Source: Terriglobia bacterium (GTDB lineage: Bacteria; Acidobacteriota; Terriglobia; Terriglobales; Acidobacteriaceae). From it: a DNA stretch of 64,000 nt. The notes under the pieces are model-generated. The model was given only the letters and a program-made list of their open reading frames with translations, did not search any database and was not told the origin of the DNA. Of this stretch, positions 2,657 through 16,187 are shown in pieces. The stretch covers positions 1-64,000 of the forward strand of contig JAIQFC010000017.1 in NCBI GenBank assembly GCA_020073465.1. The letters are read 5' to 3'. A program made the translations under genes and the position numbers. Each line of letters begins with the position of its first letter. Within the stretch, counting starts at the first letter, position 1.

Positions 2657-3568
2657 TTGCGAAAACGCTTTTACATCCTATTTGTGGCCCGCGGGGACGA
2701 CGGCCAGCTGCGTAAAATCTCCATCCCCGTGCATTACCTGTACGTGTTCGTAGTCGGCGCCGCAATAGGGTTCCTGAGCCTCACCGGTATCGCCAGCTCC
2801 TACACCCGCATGCTGCTGAAGGTTTCCCGCTACAACCAGCTGCGCACGGAAAAGGAACAGTTGAAAGACAGCTACTCCCGGCTGGAACAGGTCGCCAAGG
2901 AACGCGATGTTCAGGTTGCGTCCCTGGGCTCGATCGCCAGCGAAGTTTCGGCGCTCTATGGCCTTAAGTCACAGCCGACGCTGGTGACAGCCACGGCTGA
3001 ACAGATTCAGGACGCCGAGGTGACTTCCTCCCTCGACCAGCTTCATGCCTTGCGTACATCAGCGCTCACCGGGGCCACGATGGTCGGCCTCACCATGGGC
3101 CTTACCCGCAATGCCACCACCGCTGACTGGATTCGCGCCAACGCTGCCCCCAATCTCTGGCCGGTGGAAGGCCAGGTCACCGGCAGCTTCGGTGAGCGCA
3201 TCGACCCGTTCAACGGGGAAGGCGCATTCCACAGCGGCGTAGATATCGGCGGCACTTACGGACAGCAGGTGATTGCACCCGCCGATGGCGTGGTCACATT
3301 CGTGGACTTTCAGGGCGGATACGGCAAGGCCATCATGCTCGATCACGGCCACGGCATCAGCACCCGCTACGGCCACCTGTCCGGTTATGCCGTCACCCCA
3401 GGGCAGCATGTCCATCGCGGGGACGTGATTGGCTACGTCGGCCTCAGCGGACGCTCCACCGGCCCGCACCTTCACTATGAAGTTCGCATCAACGACACCC
3501 CAGTCAACCCCTACAAGTATCTCCGCTTGACTGTGGCCCACAGTGGCGGCTTCAGCACCGGAAGCTAG
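2657..3568 (+). CDS. Membrane-anchored M23 family metallopeptidase
   Basis: A LytM/M23-type zinc endopeptidase, predicted to cut or sense peptidoglycan cross-links in the periplasm. It starts at a TTG (MRKRFYILFVARGDDGQ). A transmembrane helix lies near residues 27-48, a coiled-coil-like stretch (YNQLRTEKEQLKDSYSRLEQ) near 57-76, and the M23 domain fills the C-terminal third. The zinc ligands are visible: HSGVDIGG (His and Asp) and GPHLHYEVR (the HxH motif). An additional His occurs in YGHLSGY. Because the full ligand set is present it is probably active, unlike EnvC/NlpD-type homologues. The 303-residue length and architecture match acidobacterial M23 proteins encoded next to cell-envelope genes. 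Confidence 0.9.
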   Translation: MRKRFYILFVARGDDGQLRKISIPVHYLYVFVVGAAIGFLSLTGIASSYTRMLLKVSRYNQLRTEKEQLKDSYSRLEQVAKERDVQVASLGSIASEVSALYGLKSQPTLVTATAEQIQDAEVTSSLDQLHALRTSALTGATMVGLTMGLTRNATTADWIRANAAPNLWPVEGQVTGSFGERIDPFNGEGAFHSGVDIGGTYGQQVIAPADGVVTFVDFQGGYGKAIMLDHGHGISTRYGHLSGYAVTPGQHVHRGDVIGYVGLSGRSTGPHLHYEVRINDTPVNPYKYLRLTVAHSGGFSTGS

Positions 3569-8689: not shown

Positions 8690-9982
8690 CTAGCTGACCC
8701 AATCCAGGAACTTGTACCACGCTCCCGCAAACGGCAGGAACCACGGCTTCCCGTTGTACATGCCCAGCGGTGCCCCCGGAAACGGAATGCCTACGAATGG
8801 ATTCTCTGGTTTGTCGCCTGCGATCAACTCAGCCATCTTCTGGCCTTGATACGTGGCCATGGCGACGCCGTGTCCGGCATATCCCAGGGCGTAATACATG
8901 CCATCCATCTGCCCGGCATGGGGCATGATGTCAAAGGCGAAATCGAGCGTGCCGCCCCAGACATATTCGACCTTCGCATCGCGCAGTTGCGGGTACACAT
9001 CGATCATCCCCCGCCGCAAAAGTTCCGCACTCCGCCGCACCGTCTGATCGTTCTCCGGGAAGAATGCTGCGCGGCCGCCAAACAACATGCGGCGGTCCGG
9101 TGTGAGCCGGTAATAGTAGAGGTAGTTTTTCGAGTCGTAGATCATGCGGTTGCGCGGGCTGAGTTCCCGCGCCAGCGCTTCGGGGAGAATCTCCGTCGTA
9201 ATGATGAACGACCCGATCGGGATAATCCTTTTCTGCAGCGCGCGGGTTGCGCTCCCCGTGTAGCCGCTGGTCCCGACGAATACCTCCCGCGCCCACAGAG
9301 GACCACGCGAGGTGACGACCTTCCATCCGGCTTCACCTTCGCACGATCCGCGTTGCATGCTTTCGACACGCGCATGCTCGAAGACATCAGCGCCCGCTTT
9401 CATCGCCGCGCATCCGAGTCCCACCACGTACCGCGCCGGATTCAGCCCGGCGCTGACTTCGTCCACCATGCCCCCGTAGTAGATATTCGAGCCGATTTCC
9501 GCGCCAAGTTCCTGACGCTGCACCACGCGCAACTCGTGGTTGAACTCGCGCGCAATCACGTCCACCTGCCGCGCGTAATCGTCGAAGTGGCTCTGTTTGC
9601 AGGCCACCTCGAGGTGCCCACAGCGCGAGAAATCACAATCGATGTTCTCCTCGCGGACGATCTGTTCGACGCAATCCATCGAGGCCAGCGAGGCGGCGTA
9701 CATGCGCCGGGTCAATTCCCGTCCGTACATCGAGATCAGCTTGTTTACCCCCAGCTTCATTCCAGTGAGCACCATGCCGCCATTGCGTGAGCTCGCGCCC
9801 CAGCCCATGGTTTCGCTTTCGAGCACCGCAACTCTTGCTCCGCGCTTCGCCAGCGTCCGTGCCGCTGAGAGGCCGGTGAATCCTGCGCCGATCACTGCTA
9901 CATCTACGCGTTCCGGCAGGGGACGCGAAGCGTCTGCCGCCGGCATTTCCGCCGTTGTCAGCCAGTAGTTTTGCTCTTTCAT
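8690..9982 (-). CDS. FAD-dependent amine/amino-acid oxidoreductase (PuuB/DAO type)
   Basis: A flavoprotein oxidase of the DAO superfamily. The Rossmann FAD motif VAVIGAGFTGLSAARTLA lies near residues 28-46, followed by WGASSRNGGMVL, the pattern seen in gamma-glutamylputrescine oxidase (PuuB) and related GlyA/SarOx enzymes. The C-terminal WGGTLDFAFDIMPHAGQ and ALGYAGHGVAMATYQGQ motifs complete the fold. The ATG at 9982 gives 430 residues; the open frame extends upstream to 10465 without homologous content. It converges with an APC permease, suggesting an uptake-and-oxidation pair. The exact substrate is not determined by sequence. Confidence 0.85.
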   Translation of the reverse strand: MKEQNYWLTTAEMPAADASRPLPERVDVAVIGAGFTGLSAARTLAKRGARVAVLESETMGWGASSRNGGMVLTGMKLGVNKLISMYGRELTRRMYAASLASMDCVEQIVREENIDCDFSRCGHLEVACKQSHFDDYARQVDVIAREFNHELRVVQRQELGAEIGSNIYYGGMVDEVSAGLNPARYVVGLGCAAMKAGADVFEHARVESMQRGSCEGEAGWKVVTSRGPLWAREVFVGTSGYTGSATRALQKRIIPIGSFIITTEILPEALARELSPRNRMIYDSKNYLYYYRLTPDRRMLFGGRAAFFPENDQTVRRSAELLRRGMIDVYPQLRDAKVEYVWGGTLDFAFDIMPHAGQMDGMYYALGYAGHGVAMATYQGQKMAELIAGDKPENPFVGIPFPGAPLGMYNGKPWFLPFAGAWYKFLDWVS

Positions 9983-10214
9983 GTTTATGTTTCGTGAATG
10001 CGTAAACGTTCCAACTGCATTACCGCAGAGAACACCGAGGGCACGGGGAAAGGCCCGGGGCCTCGATTGATGCAGGGAGCGACCGAGCATTCTAACGCGG
10101 CGCGGTTCCGCAGGTACATGTACTTCCGTTCCTGCTTGGCCCCCCGGGGGCAGCGATTTCTTCCACCTCGGTAATCTTGCTCCCCGGTTACCGCTCCCCC
10201 TAGTCTGGAGATGC

Positions 10215-12134
10215 ATGGCTCTTCGCTGCCTTCTGTTCTCCTCGGATGAGGGAACGGCCCAGCCTATTTGTCGCACCCTGGCCGACCTCGGCATCGAGGC
10301 GGAACACTGCTCGGCGGCGGTGCAGGCGGTGGAGCGCGTCACCGGCCATTTCTTCCACCTGGTAATTGTCGACTGGGATAACCAGCCCGAAGCGGCATTC
10401 CTGCTCAACACGGCGCGCGAGCGAAAGGCGGCCGAGCGACCGATGTCGCTGGCCATCGTCGGCAACGACGCCAGCGTGCCTCAAGCGCTGCAGGCGGGCG
10501 CCAACTCGATTCTGCGCAAGCCGATCCAGGTTAATCAGGTGAAAGACACGCTGAGCACCGCGCAAGGACTTCTGCGCGCGAAGTACGAGCCAGCACCCGC
10601 GGCCCAGGCCGCAGCGGCCGCGGCCGCATCCGGTGGTTCTGCGGGCACCGTCCCCCACGAAACTGCGACGCTTCGCGCTGGCGAGTTTCTGCAGTCGGGG
10701 GCAACGCCGAGCACGCAGTTCGTCACCGAGTCCGAGATACCGAAGGTGCTCGATCAGGCAGCGACGGCCGAAATCGATCCGCTGAAAGACCTGGAGCCAA
10801 TGGCGGCTGCTGTCGAGACATCGGATGCCGCTCCCGCGCCGCCTCCGCCGGAGCCGGACGAGCCGCGCGGCCTGTCCTGGTACATGAAGGCGCGTGTGGC
10901 GCCGGCACCTCCAACGGAACCGGCACCCGCAAAAGCCGAGTTGCCCAGCTTCTCTGACACCCCCTCGCATAGCGAAGCCTCTGCGGAGCCTGGCGCTCCA
11001 GACGCAGCTCCCGCCGGGACCAGTTCGGAGAAAACTAGTGAACGCGAGCAGCGAGCCGAGGCCGTGCTCTTTGCATACATCACTGGGGAGGGCTCTGAGG
11101 AGACTGAACCCAAGCCGCTCCGCAAGTTCGGCAAGCTGGCAGTCGCCGGTGTAGTCGCGGTGGCTTTGGTGATCGCGTACGTCACCGTCCCGCAATCTCT
11201 GTGGCGCCCAAGAGTGAAATCGCTGATCGCTCGCACAGCCCGCGCTGGACACAACTGGCTCAACCCGCAGCCCGTGACTACTCCCCAGGCGCCTCCGTCC
11301 CATGAAAACTTTGGCCGGGCCGGCGATGAGTACAAACTCCCGGTTGCTGAAAACATTCCCGATGCGACCACGGATCCCTCGCAAATCCGCGTGCTGCCCG
11401 TCATTGATCCGACCGCGAAGCAGCCGAATGGAGCCAACGCCGGCGCTGGTCAGAATGCCGTGCCAGTCAATACGGCAGCCAAGGATGTCCCCGACCCATC
11501 TCAGCCCGATCCGATTCAGGTGCAAGAAAATCAGAACCCCGGAGATCAGACTTCTCAGCCTCCGCAGCCGGGATCCGCAGACCAGGCAACGGAAAGCCAG
11601 CCCGCAGGCGGCGCCGTCCAGACCCCTGCGCAAAGCGTCCCGGCACAGGTTCATGTGGAGACGACGCCAGCTCCTGCTGTGACTACGCCGCCGACGACAG
11701 TGCCGCCAGCCGCGCAGCGAAATCCGCAGCCGCGCACTTTACCCGCGTCGACCAGTACATCGATTCCCTCGAGCCTGAAGTCCCAGATGGCATCGACAAC
11801 TCCGGAAGCCAGCGGGAACAAGCCGGTGGAAGCCGCCTTGCCCTCGATTGAGCCGGTCGAACTGCCCGAGGCCGCAGCGCGCAGCCTGCTTTTGCAGCAA
11901 CCGGATCCTGTTTACCCTGAAAACGCGAAGGGCCAGCAGGGTACTGTCGTGCTGGAGTTGCTCATAGGCCGTGATGGTTCCGTGCAGGACGCCAAGTTCC
12001 TGCAGGGTTCGCTCGCCTTTGCCCGCGCTGCCACCGATGCCGTAAGGCAGTGGCGGTTCAAGCCTTACACACTCAACACTCATCCCGCATCGGTGCGGAC
12101 CGTCATCACCCTGAACTTCAGACCCGCTTCCTAG
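10215..12134 (+). CDS. Receiver-like domain fused to TonB C-terminal domain
   Basis: This 639-residue protein joins two normally separate functions. Residues 1-120 look like a degenerate response-regulator receiver: the phospho-acceptor region LVIVDWDNQPEA and the conserved lysine in ILRKPIQ are present, but the acidic pair at strand 1 is reduced to SSDEG. A long Pro/Ala/Glu-rich region follows, then one transmembrane helix (LAVAGVVAVALVIAYVTV) around residue 310, then a second Pro/Gln-rich spacer. The last 80 residues are a TonB-family C-terminal domain (PVYPENAKGQQGTVVLELL, then DAVRQWRFKPYTLN). By topology the receiver is cytoplasmic and the TonB domain periplasmic. TonB domains energise outer-membrane transporters; no ExbBD or TonB-dependent receptor is adjacent. 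Confidence 0.83.
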   Translation: MALRCLLFSSDEGTAQPICRTLADLGIEAEHCSAAVQAVERVTGHFFHLVIVDWDNQPEAAFLLNTARERKAAERPMSLAIVGNDASVPQALQAGANSILRKPIQVNQVKDTLSTAQGLLRAKYEPAPAAQAAAAAAASGGSAGTVPHETATLRAGEFLQSGATPSTQFVTESEIPKVLDQAATAEIDPLKDLEPMAAAVETSDAAPAPPPPEPDEPRGLSWYMKARVAPAPPTEPAPAKAELPSFSDTPSHSEASAEPGAPDAAPAGTSSEKTSEREQRAEAVLFAYITGEGSEETEPKPLRKFGKLAVAGVVAVALVIAYVTVPQSLWRPRVKSLIARTARAGHNWLNPQPVTTPQAPPSHENFGRAGDEYKLPVAENIPDATTDPSQIRVLPVIDPTAKQPNGANAGAGQNAVPVNTAAKDVPDPSQPDPIQVQENQNPGDQTSQPPQPGSADQATESQPAGGAVQTPAQSVPAQVHVETTPAPAVTTPPTTVPPAAQRNPQPRTLPASTSTSIPSSLKSQMASTTPEASGNKPVEAALPSIEPVELPEAAARSLLLQQPDPVYPENAKGQQGTVVLELLIGRDGSVQDAKFLQGSLAFARAATDAVRQWRFKPYTLNTHPASVRTVITLNFRPAS

Positions 12135-12392: not shown

Positions 12393-13604
12393 ATGTCGAT
12401 GAAAACCAAAGCAGCGATTCTTGTTTCGTCCTTCGCCGTACTACTGTTCGTGGTTGTAGGTTCGATGGGTGGCGTGCACGCCTCCTCGAACGACGGCGCC
12501 TACCGGCAACTGCAGGTCTACAGCGAAGTTCTCTCGCGCGTGCGCAGCGAATACGTCGAGGAGCCGAACATCCCGAAAGTGACCGATGGCGCCTTGCATG
12601 GCCTGCTGGAGTCGCTCGATTCGAACTCCAGCTACATGACCGCCGACGCTTACAAGCAGTACAAGGCGCACAAGAAGGAATCCAAGGGCGAGATCGGAGC
12701 AACGGTTTCCAAGCGCTTCGGTTATGCCGCGGTAGTTTCTGTCCTTCCAGGATCGCCAGCGGAAAAGGCCGGCATTGAAGCCACTGACATTTTTGAGTCC
12801 ATTGAAGGCCAGAGCACGCGTGACATGTCGCTGCCCGAGATTCACAACGTGCTCGCCGGGACTCCCGGCTCGACCGTGAACGTGTCCGTCGTACGCGCTC
12901 GCCGCGCCGAGCCGCAGAAGGTCGTGATCACGCGTGATGTCGTCACCATCCCGCCAGTCTCTGAAAAGATGATGGAAGACGGCATCGGCTACATCAAAGT
13001 GGACGCGCTTACCAAGGGCAAGGCGCAGGAGATCGCCGGCAAGATCAAGTCACTGGAAAAGTCCGGGGCGAAGAAACTCGTTCTTGACCTCCGCAACGTG
13101 TCCGATGGCGACCAGGGTGAAGGCGTCGCGGTTGCGAACCTGTTCCTGAATCACGGGACGATCACCTATCTGCAGGGACAGAAGTATCCCCGCGAGGCTT
13201 TCAACGCCGACGCGGCGAAAGCCGTTACCACGCTTCCTCTTGCTGTGCTGGTGAACCGAGGCTCGGCAGGTCCGGCTGAGATCGCGGCAGCCGCGATCCT
13301 GGAGAACGCTCGCGGCGACGTGGTGGGCGATAAGACCTTTGGCGACGGTACGGTGCAGAAGACCATCGATCTGCCCGATGGCGGGGCGTTGATTCTCTCC
13401 GTGGCCAAGTACTACTCACCCAGCGGCAAGGCCATTCAGGATGCGGCCGTCACGCCGAATGTGGTCATCGCAGACGAAGCCGACAGCGTGGTTCCAGATG
13501 ACGACGAACAGCCCAGCGCACCCGATCAGGACACCAAGCCCAAGAACACGGTGGATGATCAGTTGAAGAAGGCCGTGGAAGTCCTGAAGAGCCGCGCCAG
13601 CTAG
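12393..13604 (+). CDS. S41 (CtpA-like) protease homologue lacking the catalytic Ser and Lys
   Basis: The fold is that of C-terminal processing proteases: a signal anchor (MSMKTKAAILVSSFAVLLFVV), an N-terminal helical domain with the DGALHGLLESLD pattern, a PDZ domain (IGATVSKR, then LPGSPAEKAGIEATDIFESI), then the S41 core. Catalytically active family members have GSASASE and TFGKG with Ser and Lys exactly 25 residues apart. Here the aligned motifs read GSAGPAE (Gly293 in the Ser position) and TFGDG (Asp318 in the Lys position), again 25 apart. It is therefore probably a pseudoprotease that binds unfolded C-termini without cutting. Ser291 and Lys314 are nearby but out of register. The start at 12393 is chosen because the longer frame (12150) lacks signal-like residues. 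Confidence 0.87.
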   Translation: MSMKTKAAILVSSFAVLLFVVVGSMGGVHASSNDGAYRQLQVYSEVLSRVRSEYVEEPNIPKVTDGALHGLLESLDSNSSYMTADAYKQYKAHKKESKGEIGATVSKRFGYAAVVSVLPGSPAEKAGIEATDIFESIEGQSTRDMSLPEIHNVLAGTPGSTVNVSVVRARRAEPQKVVITRDVVTIPPVSEKMMEDGIGYIKVDALTKGKAQEIAGKIKSLEKSGAKKLVLDLRNVSDGDQGEGVAVANLFLNHGTITYLQGQKYPREAFNADAAKAVTTLPLAVLVNRGSAGPAEIAAAAILENARGDVVGDKTFGDGTVQKTIDLPDGGALILSVAKYYSPSGKAIQDAAVTPNVVIADEADSVVPDDDEQPSAPDQDTKPKNTVDDQLKKAVEVLKSRAS

Positions 13605-13964: not shown

Positions 13965-16187
13965 ATGAAGTCTCTCTACGAACATCTTCCCCCGGTTGAA
14001 ATCGCGGGCCGCAAACTCGTGGGCCGCGTGCTCTTCGGCTTGCTCGTCCTGATTTCTGCGCTGGTCGGAGCGACCGCCGGACTTCTCCTCGTCTACACAA
14101 CCGACCTGCCCCAAGTCGACGCACTCGAGGCCTATCGTCCCAGCTCGATCACCGAGCTCTACGACGATCAAGGACGCGTCATCGGATCCTTCGCCCTGCA
14201 GCGTCGCGTGGTGGCCAGCTACGACGACTTCCCGCCCGTGCTGCGCGATGCTCTCGTCTCCATCGAAGACAAGGATTTCTACCGCCACTCCGGAATCAAC
14301 TTCTGGCGTATCATCGGCGCCGCCTATCGCGATATCGAATCTGGCGGCAAAGTTCAGGGCGCATCCACGCTGACCATGCAGCTCGCCCGCAATCTTTTCC
14401 TTTCGCCGGACCGCTCCTTCCATCGCAAAGTGCAGGAGACGATGCTCGCCATCCAGATCGAGCGCCGCTTCACCAAGCCGCAAATCTTTACTCTCTACGC
14501 CAACCAGATCTTCCTCGGCCACGGCGTCTACGGCTTCGAGGCTGCCTCCGAGTTCTACTTCAGCAAGCCCGCGAAAAAGCTTACGCTCGACGAAGCCGCG
14601 CTGCTCGCCGGACTTCCCAAGGGACCGGGAGTCTACACTCCGATCTATCACCCCGACCGCGCTCAGAAGCGCCGCAATCTGGTCATCAATGCCATGCTCG
14701 AAGACGGCAAGATCACCGCTGCACAGGCCGCCGACGCCCGCTCCGCCCCTCTAGTCCTCCGTCTGGCGCACGATACCAACTCGCTCGCCCCGTATTTTGT
14801 CGAAGAAATCCGCCGCTACCTCGAAGGCAAATACGGTTCTGACCAGGTCCACGAAGGCGGTCTCAAGGTTTACACCACGCTCGACGTTGACCTGCAAAAA
14901 GCCGCGAACCAGGCTGTGCTCGACGGGCTTGCTGCCTACGAGCGCCGCCACGGCTGGAAGGCTCACCTCGAAAACGTCCTCGCCCAGGGGCTTACCATTG
15001 AGAAATATTCTGATCCTGATTGGGACGACGAGCCTGAAGTCGGTGGATACATTCACGCTCTGGTCACGTCGGCGGGCACAGGAATTGCCACGCTGAAGTT
15101 TGGCCACTACACCGCCGCGCTGGCGCAATCCGACGTGGCCTGGACTCAGCAGAAGCTGCAAGCCATACTCAAGACCGGCGACATCTGCTACGTGAAAGTC
15201 CTTGCTCTCGCGCCCAACGGCGCTGCCAAGGTCAGCCTTGAGCAGGACTCCGGCTCGCAGGGAGCGCTATTGGCCATCGACAACACTACCGGCGGCATCA
15301 AGGCCATGGTGGGCGGGCGCGACTTCAACGAATCCAAGTTCAACCGCGCCACGCAAGCTCTCCGCCAGGTCGGCTCATCTTTCAAACCCTACGTTTACAC
15401 GACTGTGATCGATCAAGGCGCCAGCCCTGACGACACCATCCTCGACGAACCCATCAGCTTCGACACTCCCTCTGGCCCCTACTCGCCGCACAACTATGAC
15501 GAGAAGTTCGAAGGCATCATCACTTTGCGCCGCGCGCTGGCGCAGTCCCGCAACATCCCCGCACTGAAGCTCGCGAGCAAGGTGGGGATCAAGACTGTGA
15601 TCGATTACACCGGACGCTTTGGCGTCACCGCCAAGCTGCCTCCGTACCTGCCGGTCGCACTCGGTTCGGCCGAGATCACGCTGATCGAGCAAACCTCAGC
15701 CTACAGCGTGTTTCCAAACGATGGTGTGCGTGTGACGCCTCACTACATCACGCGTGTCACCGACTATGATGGGCGCGTGCTGGAGGAAGATTTCCCTGAG
15801 GTCAAGGATGTGATCAGCACGCGCACTGCACGCATCCTGACGGCGATGCTGCGGGAAGTCGTTCTCCACGGTACAGGAGTCGCAGCCGCGAAGCTGCCCT
15901 TTCCCGTCGCCGGCAAAACCGGCACGACGAACGACTTTACCGACGCCTGGTTCGTCGGCTTCTCTCCCGGCATGACCTGCGGCGTCTGGGTCGGCTATGA
16001 CGAGAGGAAGTCGCTGGGGGCAAAAGAAACGGGAGCGCATGCCGCGCTCCCGATCTGGATGAACTTCATGACTACAGCTATGGCCGGCAAAGATCCTGGC
16101 GACTTTCAACCGCCTCCGAGCATGCCGCACGTCGCCCAGAAGCTGGACACCCCCGACACCGCCCCCGCAACAGAAGAATCCCACTGA
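13965..16187 (+). CDS. mrcA: Penicillin-binding protein 1A (bifunctional glycosyltransferase/transpeptidase)
   Basis: A class A PBP that polymerises lipid II and cross-links peptides at the outer face of the inner membrane. An N-terminal transmembrane helix (VLFGLLVLISALVGATAGLL) precedes the GT51 domain with EDKDFYRHSGIN (catalytic Glu), QGASTLTMQLARNLFL, and KPQIFTLYANQIFLG. The transpeptidase has the SxxK box GSSFKP, the SxN box SRN (AQSRNIPALK) and KTGTT (GKTGTTNDFTDAWF). All catalytic residues are present and the 740-residue length is normal. The ATG at 13965 follows a TATCCT box by 14 bases. It is a single gene, ending just before a repeat cluster. Confidence 0.95.
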   Translation: MKSLYEHLPPVEIAGRKLVGRVLFGLLVLISALVGATAGLLLVYTTDLPQVDALEAYRPSSITELYDDQGRVIGSFALQRRVVASYDDFPPVLRDALVSIEDKDFYRHSGINFWRIIGAAYRDIESGGKVQGASTLTMQLARNLFLSPDRSFHRKVQETMLAIQIERRFTKPQIFTLYANQIFLGHGVYGFEAASEFYFSKPAKKLTLDEAALLAGLPKGPGVYTPIYHPDRAQKRRNLVINAMLEDGKITAAQAADARSAPLVLRLAHDTNSLAPYFVEEIRRYLEGKYGSDQVHEGGLKVYTTLDVDLQKAANQAVLDGLAAYERRHGWKAHLENVLAQGLTIEKYSDPDWDDEPEVGGYIHALVTSAGTGIATLKFGHYTAALAQSDVAWTQQKLQAILKTGDICYVKVLALAPNGAAKVSLEQDSGSQGALLAIDNTTGGIKAMVGGRDFNESKFNRATQALRQVGSSFKPYVYTTVIDQGASPDDTILDEPISFDTPSGPYSPHNYDEKFEGIITLRRALAQSRNIPALKLASKVGIKTVIDYTGRFGVTAKLPPYLPVALGSAEITLIEQTSAYSVFPNDGVRVTPHYITRVTDYDGRVLEEDFPEVKDVISTRTARILTAMLREVVLHGTGVAAAKLPFPVAGKTGTTNDFTDAWFVGFSPGMTCGVWVGYDERKSLGAKETGAHAALPIWMNFMTTAMAGKDPGDFQPPPSMPHVAQKLDTPDTAPATEESH

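Follow-up and report, generated by a model that had tools for sequence, protein, structure and literature searches.

The question raised by this locus is whether a gene that carries the profile of a CtpA-type peptidase encodes a peptidase at all and, if it does not, what its product might do. The window, a stretch of 64,000 nucleotides of contig JAIQFC010000017.1 from a Terriglobia bacterium (Acidobacteriota), contains an S41-family gene whose product passes PF03572 (126.8 bits against a cut-off of 24, residues 198-358) and the NCBIfam profile TIGR00225 for prc (223.8 bits against a curated cut-off of 218.6). Because the latter threshold is exceeded, automatic annotation would label the protein as a peptidase. 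Its start codon is supported by the first two residues, M1 and S2, which do not vary in 31 of 31 aligned sequences. The gene, referred to here as pseudo-CtpA, and the features of its product are as follows.

12393..13604, + strand: pseudo-CtpA gene (S41 non-peptidase homologue), 403 residues, ATG to TAG; Pfam and NCBIfam profiles, orthologue alignment
12411..12467, + strand: N-terminal hydrophobic segment, residues 7-25, predicted signal peptide or anchor; hydropathy maximum
12624..12626, + strand: Asn78, aligned with His84 of P. aeruginosa CtpA, a helper of catalysis; alignment
12675..12902, + strand: PDZ domain, approximately residues 95-170; Pfam PDZ_6/PDZ_2/PDZ
12690..12701, + strand: EIGA, residues 100-103, aligned with the carboxylate-binding loop of CtpB (Gly113-Ala116), with Glu100 for the first Gly; alignment
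12855..12857, + strand: Ala155, aligned with Arg168, the substrate sensor of CtpB; alignment
12984..13466, + strand: Peptidase_S41 core (PF03572), residues 198-358; Pfam, E 8.2e-37
13098..13109, + strand: VSDG, residues 236-239, replacing the NPGG loop; alignment against active relatives
13269-13271, + strand: Gly293, codon GGT, in the catalytic Ser column (GSA[G]PAE); alignment to CtpB S309A PDB chains
13344-13346, + strand: Asp318, codon GAC, in the catalytic Lys column (TFG[D]G); alignment
13356..13358, + strand: Gln322, the third triad residue, kept four residues past the Lys column and matching CtpB Gln338; alignment

The original prediction held that both residues of the S41 dyad are replaced, by Gly293 and Asp318, with their spacing of 25 residues preserved, and the alignment bears this out. 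The nucleophile column was fixed independently from PDB chains of CtpB, in which SASASE reads SAAASE in the S309A variant, so that the middle Ser is marked. In Prc, the dyad is Ser430/Lys455. The spacing seen between Gly293 and Asp318 is also that between Ser309 and Lys334 of CtpB (excerpt of PMC3808539), Ser302 and Lys327 of Pseudomonas aeruginosa CtpA (excerpt of PMC11021448), and Ser300 and Lys325 of Helicobacter pylori CtpA (excerpt of PMC12749690). The P. aeruginosa substitutions S302A and K327A are each described as abolishing activity in vivo (PMC11021448). Judged by these columns, the window protein is almost certainly not a conventional serine protease.

The damage extends beyond the dyad. 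For comparison, orthologues thinned at 72% identity gave sets of 90 rows, with 14 active relatives as the reference. An intact NPGG within the LDxRxNPGG loop, which presumably sits at the oxyanion hole, was found in 0 of 90 orthologue rows as against 14 of 14 active ones, and the helper His in 2 of 90 as against 12 of 14. Erosion was also found in the PDZ domain, whose columns were positioned with the R168A and V118Y chains of CtpB in the PDB: the first Gly of the carboxylate loop (CtpB Gly113) survives in 18 of 90 rows versus 14 of 14, and Arg or Lys stands in the sensor column (CtpB Arg168) in 31 of 90 versus 14 of 14. Arg168 of the window protein was considered as the equivalent of CtpB Arg168 and rejected, the R168A variant placing the matching position at Ala155. 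Thus, the earlier description of the PDZ domain as intact holds for the fold (PDZ_6, 42.1 bits) but not for the ligand residues, with Glu100 and Ala155 in their places. This erosion argues against ordinary binding of C-terminal tails by pseudo-CtpA. A role as PDZ adaptor or chaperone, suggested at the outset, is accordingly possible but not specifically indicated, because the residues with which such domains usually capture a C-terminus are mostly replaced. As the catalytic dyad, the NPGG loop and the PDZ recognition residues tested have all been replaced, pseudo-CtpA should, on present alignments, be classed as a CtpA-type pseudoenzyme rather than as a peptidase; its annotation as one, following from the TIGR00225 score, would be misleading across acidobacterial genomes.

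By homology, the fold has been retained. Matches to the solved structures of P. aeruginosa CtpA (7rpq, 8sxe; E 1e-48) and H. pylori CtpA (9ku0, 9jr1; E 2e-56) cover 320-350 residues, that to 9ku0 (E 2.4e-56) spanning window residues 41-393, and the N-terminal helices, PDZ domain, S41 core and C-terminal region are common to all three proteins, as is the triad Gln. The window protein differs from both enzymes in the replacement of Ser, Lys, NPGG, helper His, carboxylate-loop Gly and sensor Arg. An AlphaFold model from the window protein and 30 near sequences (alignment A1, too shallow) was poor (pLDDT 54, pTM 0.39).

An alignment of acidobacterial S41 proteins had been proposed as the way to learn whether the Gly/Asp state defines a subfamily. 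Gly with a residue other than Lys was found to be conserved, and on the scale of the phylum: of 177 distinct orthologues that could be read, 168 have neither Ser nor Lys, a count that leaves out three fragments (two at L072, one at L101) and L113, a distant paralogue with near-equal scores to both profiles. The Ser column of the 177 reads Gly in 162, Ser in 8, Asn in 4, and Ala, Tyr and Gln in 1 each; Lys is kept in 5 and the triad Gln in 165. Because the same state recurs across the phylum, Gly293 and Asp318 do not reflect chance or sequencing error. Ser and Lys occur together only in L086, L200, L210 and L211, the last three belonging to family f34, and N-x-G-G is also retained in L200. Gly with Lys retained is found in L212, likewise of f34, and Ser without Lys in L078, L160, L179 and L223. 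The four f34 members (L200, L210, L211 and L212) all adjoin an EnvC-type gene and form a natural series of catalytic loss.

Identity to the window protein is 76-94% within the genus (72% for a second copy in genome G016), 35-55% in other families of the order and class, and approximately 31-43% in other classes of the phylum, and no internal stops were found in the orthologues. At a threshold of E 1e-20, 288 of 297 phylum genomes have a match, a figure that mixes the orthologue with the active paralogue. Five S41 genes were found in the window's genome, one of which, on contig C37 (L001/L102, SKQ), encodes an intact Ctp; among near genomes, 38 of 41 have a separate Ctp paralogue, as do all 19 of the good ones. 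Homologues outside Acidobacteriota were sought on plasmids only (250 records), and six of their S41 proteins were read. One of these, from a Calothrix plasmid (L208:1737-2996, + strand), has Ser but Tyr in the Lys column, a possible partial loss outside the phylum. In the open-licence literature searched, no catalytically dead bacterial S41 protein was recognised by title.

Selection on the coding sequence was estimated from 54 distinct sequences, drawn from the genus and from close relatives. All 54 carry Gly at the Ser column, encoded by GGC (20), GGA (13), GGG (12) and GGT (9), and the Lys column is Asp in 41, Glu in 5, Val in 5 and Ala in 3. The median dN/dS was 0.098 over 985 pairs, 446 of 1431 having been dropped for dS above 2 or undefined, and 0.061 when restricted to the 62 pairs whose dS is below 1. 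Purifying selection on pseudo-CtpA is strong, and Gly is also kept at the site of the old nucleophile. The view that selection keeps the fold is upheld by a median dN/dS near 0.1 and by a Gly fixed through all four of its codons.

Phylogenetic trees, built without the active-site columns, placed the orthologues in a single clade apart from active Ctp (SH-aLRT 100 with 90 rows, 99 with 56 rows). Left out of the trees were L003, L004, L113, L100 and the second L191 frame, and the 56-row tree was additionally computed without L208, L189, L199 and near duplicates. On the latter, the minimal number of changes was five in the Ser column and three in the Lys column, unpolarised in both. Constraining the 51 dead ingroup rows to a single loss cost 24.5 log-likelihood units (AU p 0.013), in a test whose group was named after the first tree had been seen, with a quick tree type and long branches on the rows that keep Ser and Lys. 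Loss of the catalytic residues in parallel, more than once, is the history we favour: it is the simpler account because the Ser/Lys-keeping rows sit inside the clade and the joint-dead tree is rejected, and it is provisional because those rows have long branches.

The genes around pseudo-CtpA point repeatedly to the cell wall. Two neighbours are of particular relevance in the window.

10215..12134, + strand: upstream neighbour, a TonB_C protein whose N-terminus is weakly receiver-like; Pfam, conserved within the genus only
13965..16187, + strand: downstream neighbour, a peptidoglycan synthase of PBP1A type; Pfam Transgly + Transpeptidase, synteny conserved in the family

The gene had been described as lying directly after a REC-TonB fusion. 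The TonB_C domain is clear (E 7.6e-16) and the gene does lie upstream, but the REC portion is sub-threshold (Response_reg, E 0.003, scoring 18.1 bits where the cut-off is 30.2) and the adjacency holds at the level of the genus only (25 of 35 loci). More is to be learned from PBP1A and, in the deeper classes, from EnvC and MltG. The TonB_C protein has a long Pro/Ala linker, and the start of its gene is overlapped by an opposite-strand ORF for an FAD oxidoreductase (8690-10465), whose true start is therefore probably further in. The PBP1A gene is found downstream on the same strand within 3 kb in 31 of 37 genus loci; for the family's other genera the count is 26 of 28 loci at a limit of 1.5 kb.

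A different set of neighbours was found in the other classes of the phylum; neighbours, there and in the family, are named by the Pfam matches of their representatives (M23, PF04748, RuvX, YceG, ThrRS, PBP1A). Across 78 loci, an EnvC-type gene lies on the same strand within 1.3 kb in 36, MltG on the opposite strand within 3.6 kb in 44, RuvX in 48, ThrRS in 37 and a divergent polysaccharide deacetylase in 6; EnvC, MltG and RuvX are all missing from 14 loci. In these counts short flanks are scored as misses, and the neighbour profiles were built from members of the same clusters. One member of the EnvC cluster, from L150, has no Pfam match. None of the 36 EnvC-type neighbours has the full M23 metal-ligand set, whereas in the same alignment both M23 genes of the window's genome (PF01551) do. 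One M23 endopeptidase-like gene with the full set lies in the window itself (2657-3568, + strand), approximately 9 kb upstream and co-directional; an upstream same-strand M23 match occurs on the S41 contig in at least 14 other genus genomes, with the opposite strand in G001.

The order envC-S41-deacetylase, seen in some deep acidobacteriotal clades, is also that of the alphaproteobacterial operon of Sinorhizobium (rlmH-envC-S41-deacetylase-rppH). Sinorhizobium CtpA (L204), situated directly after envC and before a divergent deacetylase, has Ser, Lys and Gln; the window's genome instead has PBP1A downstream and no match to PF04748. EnvC is likely absent from this genome as well: both M23 genes found there have the full ligand set, and a search with L182:1969-4557, a stop-to-stop frame with a probably non-coding front part, gave noisy output. 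Judged by its place and its sequence alike, the window gene is best read as the CtpA of an envC-ctpA-deacetylase operon by descent, which in its own family has come to adjoin PBP1A.

Wall hydrolases are among the substrates of active CtpA. Together with LbcA, the P. aeruginosa enzyme degrades M23 and NlpC/P60 wall hydrolases (excerpt of PMC6050968), and MepM of Zymomonas is degraded by active CtpA (excerpt of PMC13101528). From gene context, we infer that pseudo-CtpA is, with somewhat better than even confidence, a membrane-anchored and probably oligomeric periplasmic pseudoprotease that serves as a scaffold or regulator of peptidoglycan remodelling without proteolysis. This reading is preferred because the fold is kept while dyad, NPGG and His are lost, because selection is purifying, and because the gene is spread through the phylum with recurrent cell-wall neighbours.

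The N- and C-terminal regions of the window protein align with the domains through which solved CtpA oligomerises, and pseudo-CtpA may assemble through the same helices as the active enzyme, whose oligomer is a trimer of dimers. In H. pylori CtpA carrying S300A/K325A/Q329A, hexamers still form and a peptide is still held, as described in an excerpt of PMC12749690. The old substrate tunnel of pseudo-CtpA could similarly bind an extended segment or a partner protein without cutting it, and a partner so held or sequestered would adjust where or when wall hydrolysis and synthesis occur. In the deep clades that partner might be an EnvC-type amidase activator; in the window's family, PBP1A or an M23 endopeptidase would be more likely. 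The neighbours differ among lineages, EnvC in some and PBP1A in others, which argues against a single constant partner.

Catalytically dead proteins are not without precedent, known examples being vertebrate RBP3 and ATU2773, a dead deacetylase of the Agrobacterium tumefaciens envC operon. The latter, for which its authors suggested a regulatory role, and EnvC are both retained in that operon as inactive proteins, much as pseudo-CtpA is in deep clades, although their folds differ (deacetylase for ATU2773, LytM for EnvC and S41 here). In Escherichia coli, EnvC is an amidase activator and, with the operon deacetylase, has been linked to septal amidase control (excerpt of PMC12440217, as for ATU2773). 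Because EnvC is itself a hydrolase fold without metal ligands, the ancestral pair would consist of two dead enzymes acting as regulators. A bolder version, which we offer tentatively and think more probably wrong than right, is that an ancient, phylum-wide pseudoprotease and a degenerate EnvC form a two-pseudoenzyme switch for peptidoglycan hydrolysis, a hydrolase-degrading CtpA having been turned into a non-cutting holder, with repeated parallel loss of its catalytic residues along the phylum. Were the scaffold reading correct, a proteolytic control step would have been converted into a binding step, and a natural series for the change from protease to regulator would be provided by lineages that keep both Ser and Lys (f34, G057), one of the two or neither.

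The strongest competitor, though an unlikely one, is that pseudo-CtpA combines with the intact Ctp paralogue of its genome into mixed dimers or hexamers, as a permanently resting subunit that lends loops in trans. Solved CtpA dimers have a single active subunit, with a loop working in trans from dimer to dimer (excerpts of PMC11021448 and PMC12749690); the paralogue is widely present (38 of 41 near genomes, all 19 good ones), and residues 41 to 393 align to solved CtpA. The two genes, however, lie on separate contigs (C16 and C37) and their products share approximately 32% identity, and since the f34 orthologue still has Ser and Lys, such a role would not be ancestral.

Less probable again is a decoy that would bind the segments on which active Ctp acts and delay their degradation. 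Common ancestry with active Ctp and the retained core would suit it, as would the fact that wall hydrolases are targets of the active enzyme (PMC6050968), but the carboxylate loop and sensor Arg through which CtpB recognises its substrates are mostly replaced. A further, distinctly improbable reading draws on vertebrate RBP3/IRBP, an extracellular retinoid carrier made of tandem modules, and would make pseudo-CtpA a binder of small or lipidic ligands. RBP3 has an S41-like fold without protease residues, as does the window protein, and is described as having a bacterial protease origin followed by loss of its catalytic residues (excerpt of PMC11750400). The gene contexts of the two are unrelated, and around pseudo-CtpA cell-wall genes dominate, with no sign of lipid transport. 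Under the scaffold reading, a bacterial S41 protein with fold kept and cutting lost would be the prokaryotic counterpart of RBP3.

Very little weight can be given to the proposal that the protein is still a protease, acting through displaced residues such as Ser/Thr291 with Lys314 or through other chemistry. Column 291 is indeed Thr in 80 and Ser in 10 of the 90 orthologue rows, and Lys314 is invariant in 31 aligned near sequences. A displaced Ser291/Lys314 dyad is nonetheless unlikely: column 291 is equally Ser or Thr in all 14 active rows, column 314 is Lys in 34 and Arg in 39 of the 90, NPGG is gone, and the S302A and K327A results above stand against it. That this is a decaying, functionless gene, as loss of the active site alone might suggest, can be dismissed almost outright given a dN/dS of about 0.1, a Gly fixed over four codons, wide presence and the lack of internal stops.

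A last observation comes from sister-family loci. At L082, L081, L088 and L100, pseudo-CtpA is followed by a weak match to SpoIVB peptidase S55 (27.5 bits against a cut-off of 25 at L082:2908-4752, - strand) and then by a second conserved gene. CtpB and SpoIVB share one pathway in Bacillus, and the pairing of a SpoIVB-like gene with pseudo-CtpA is curious in that light.
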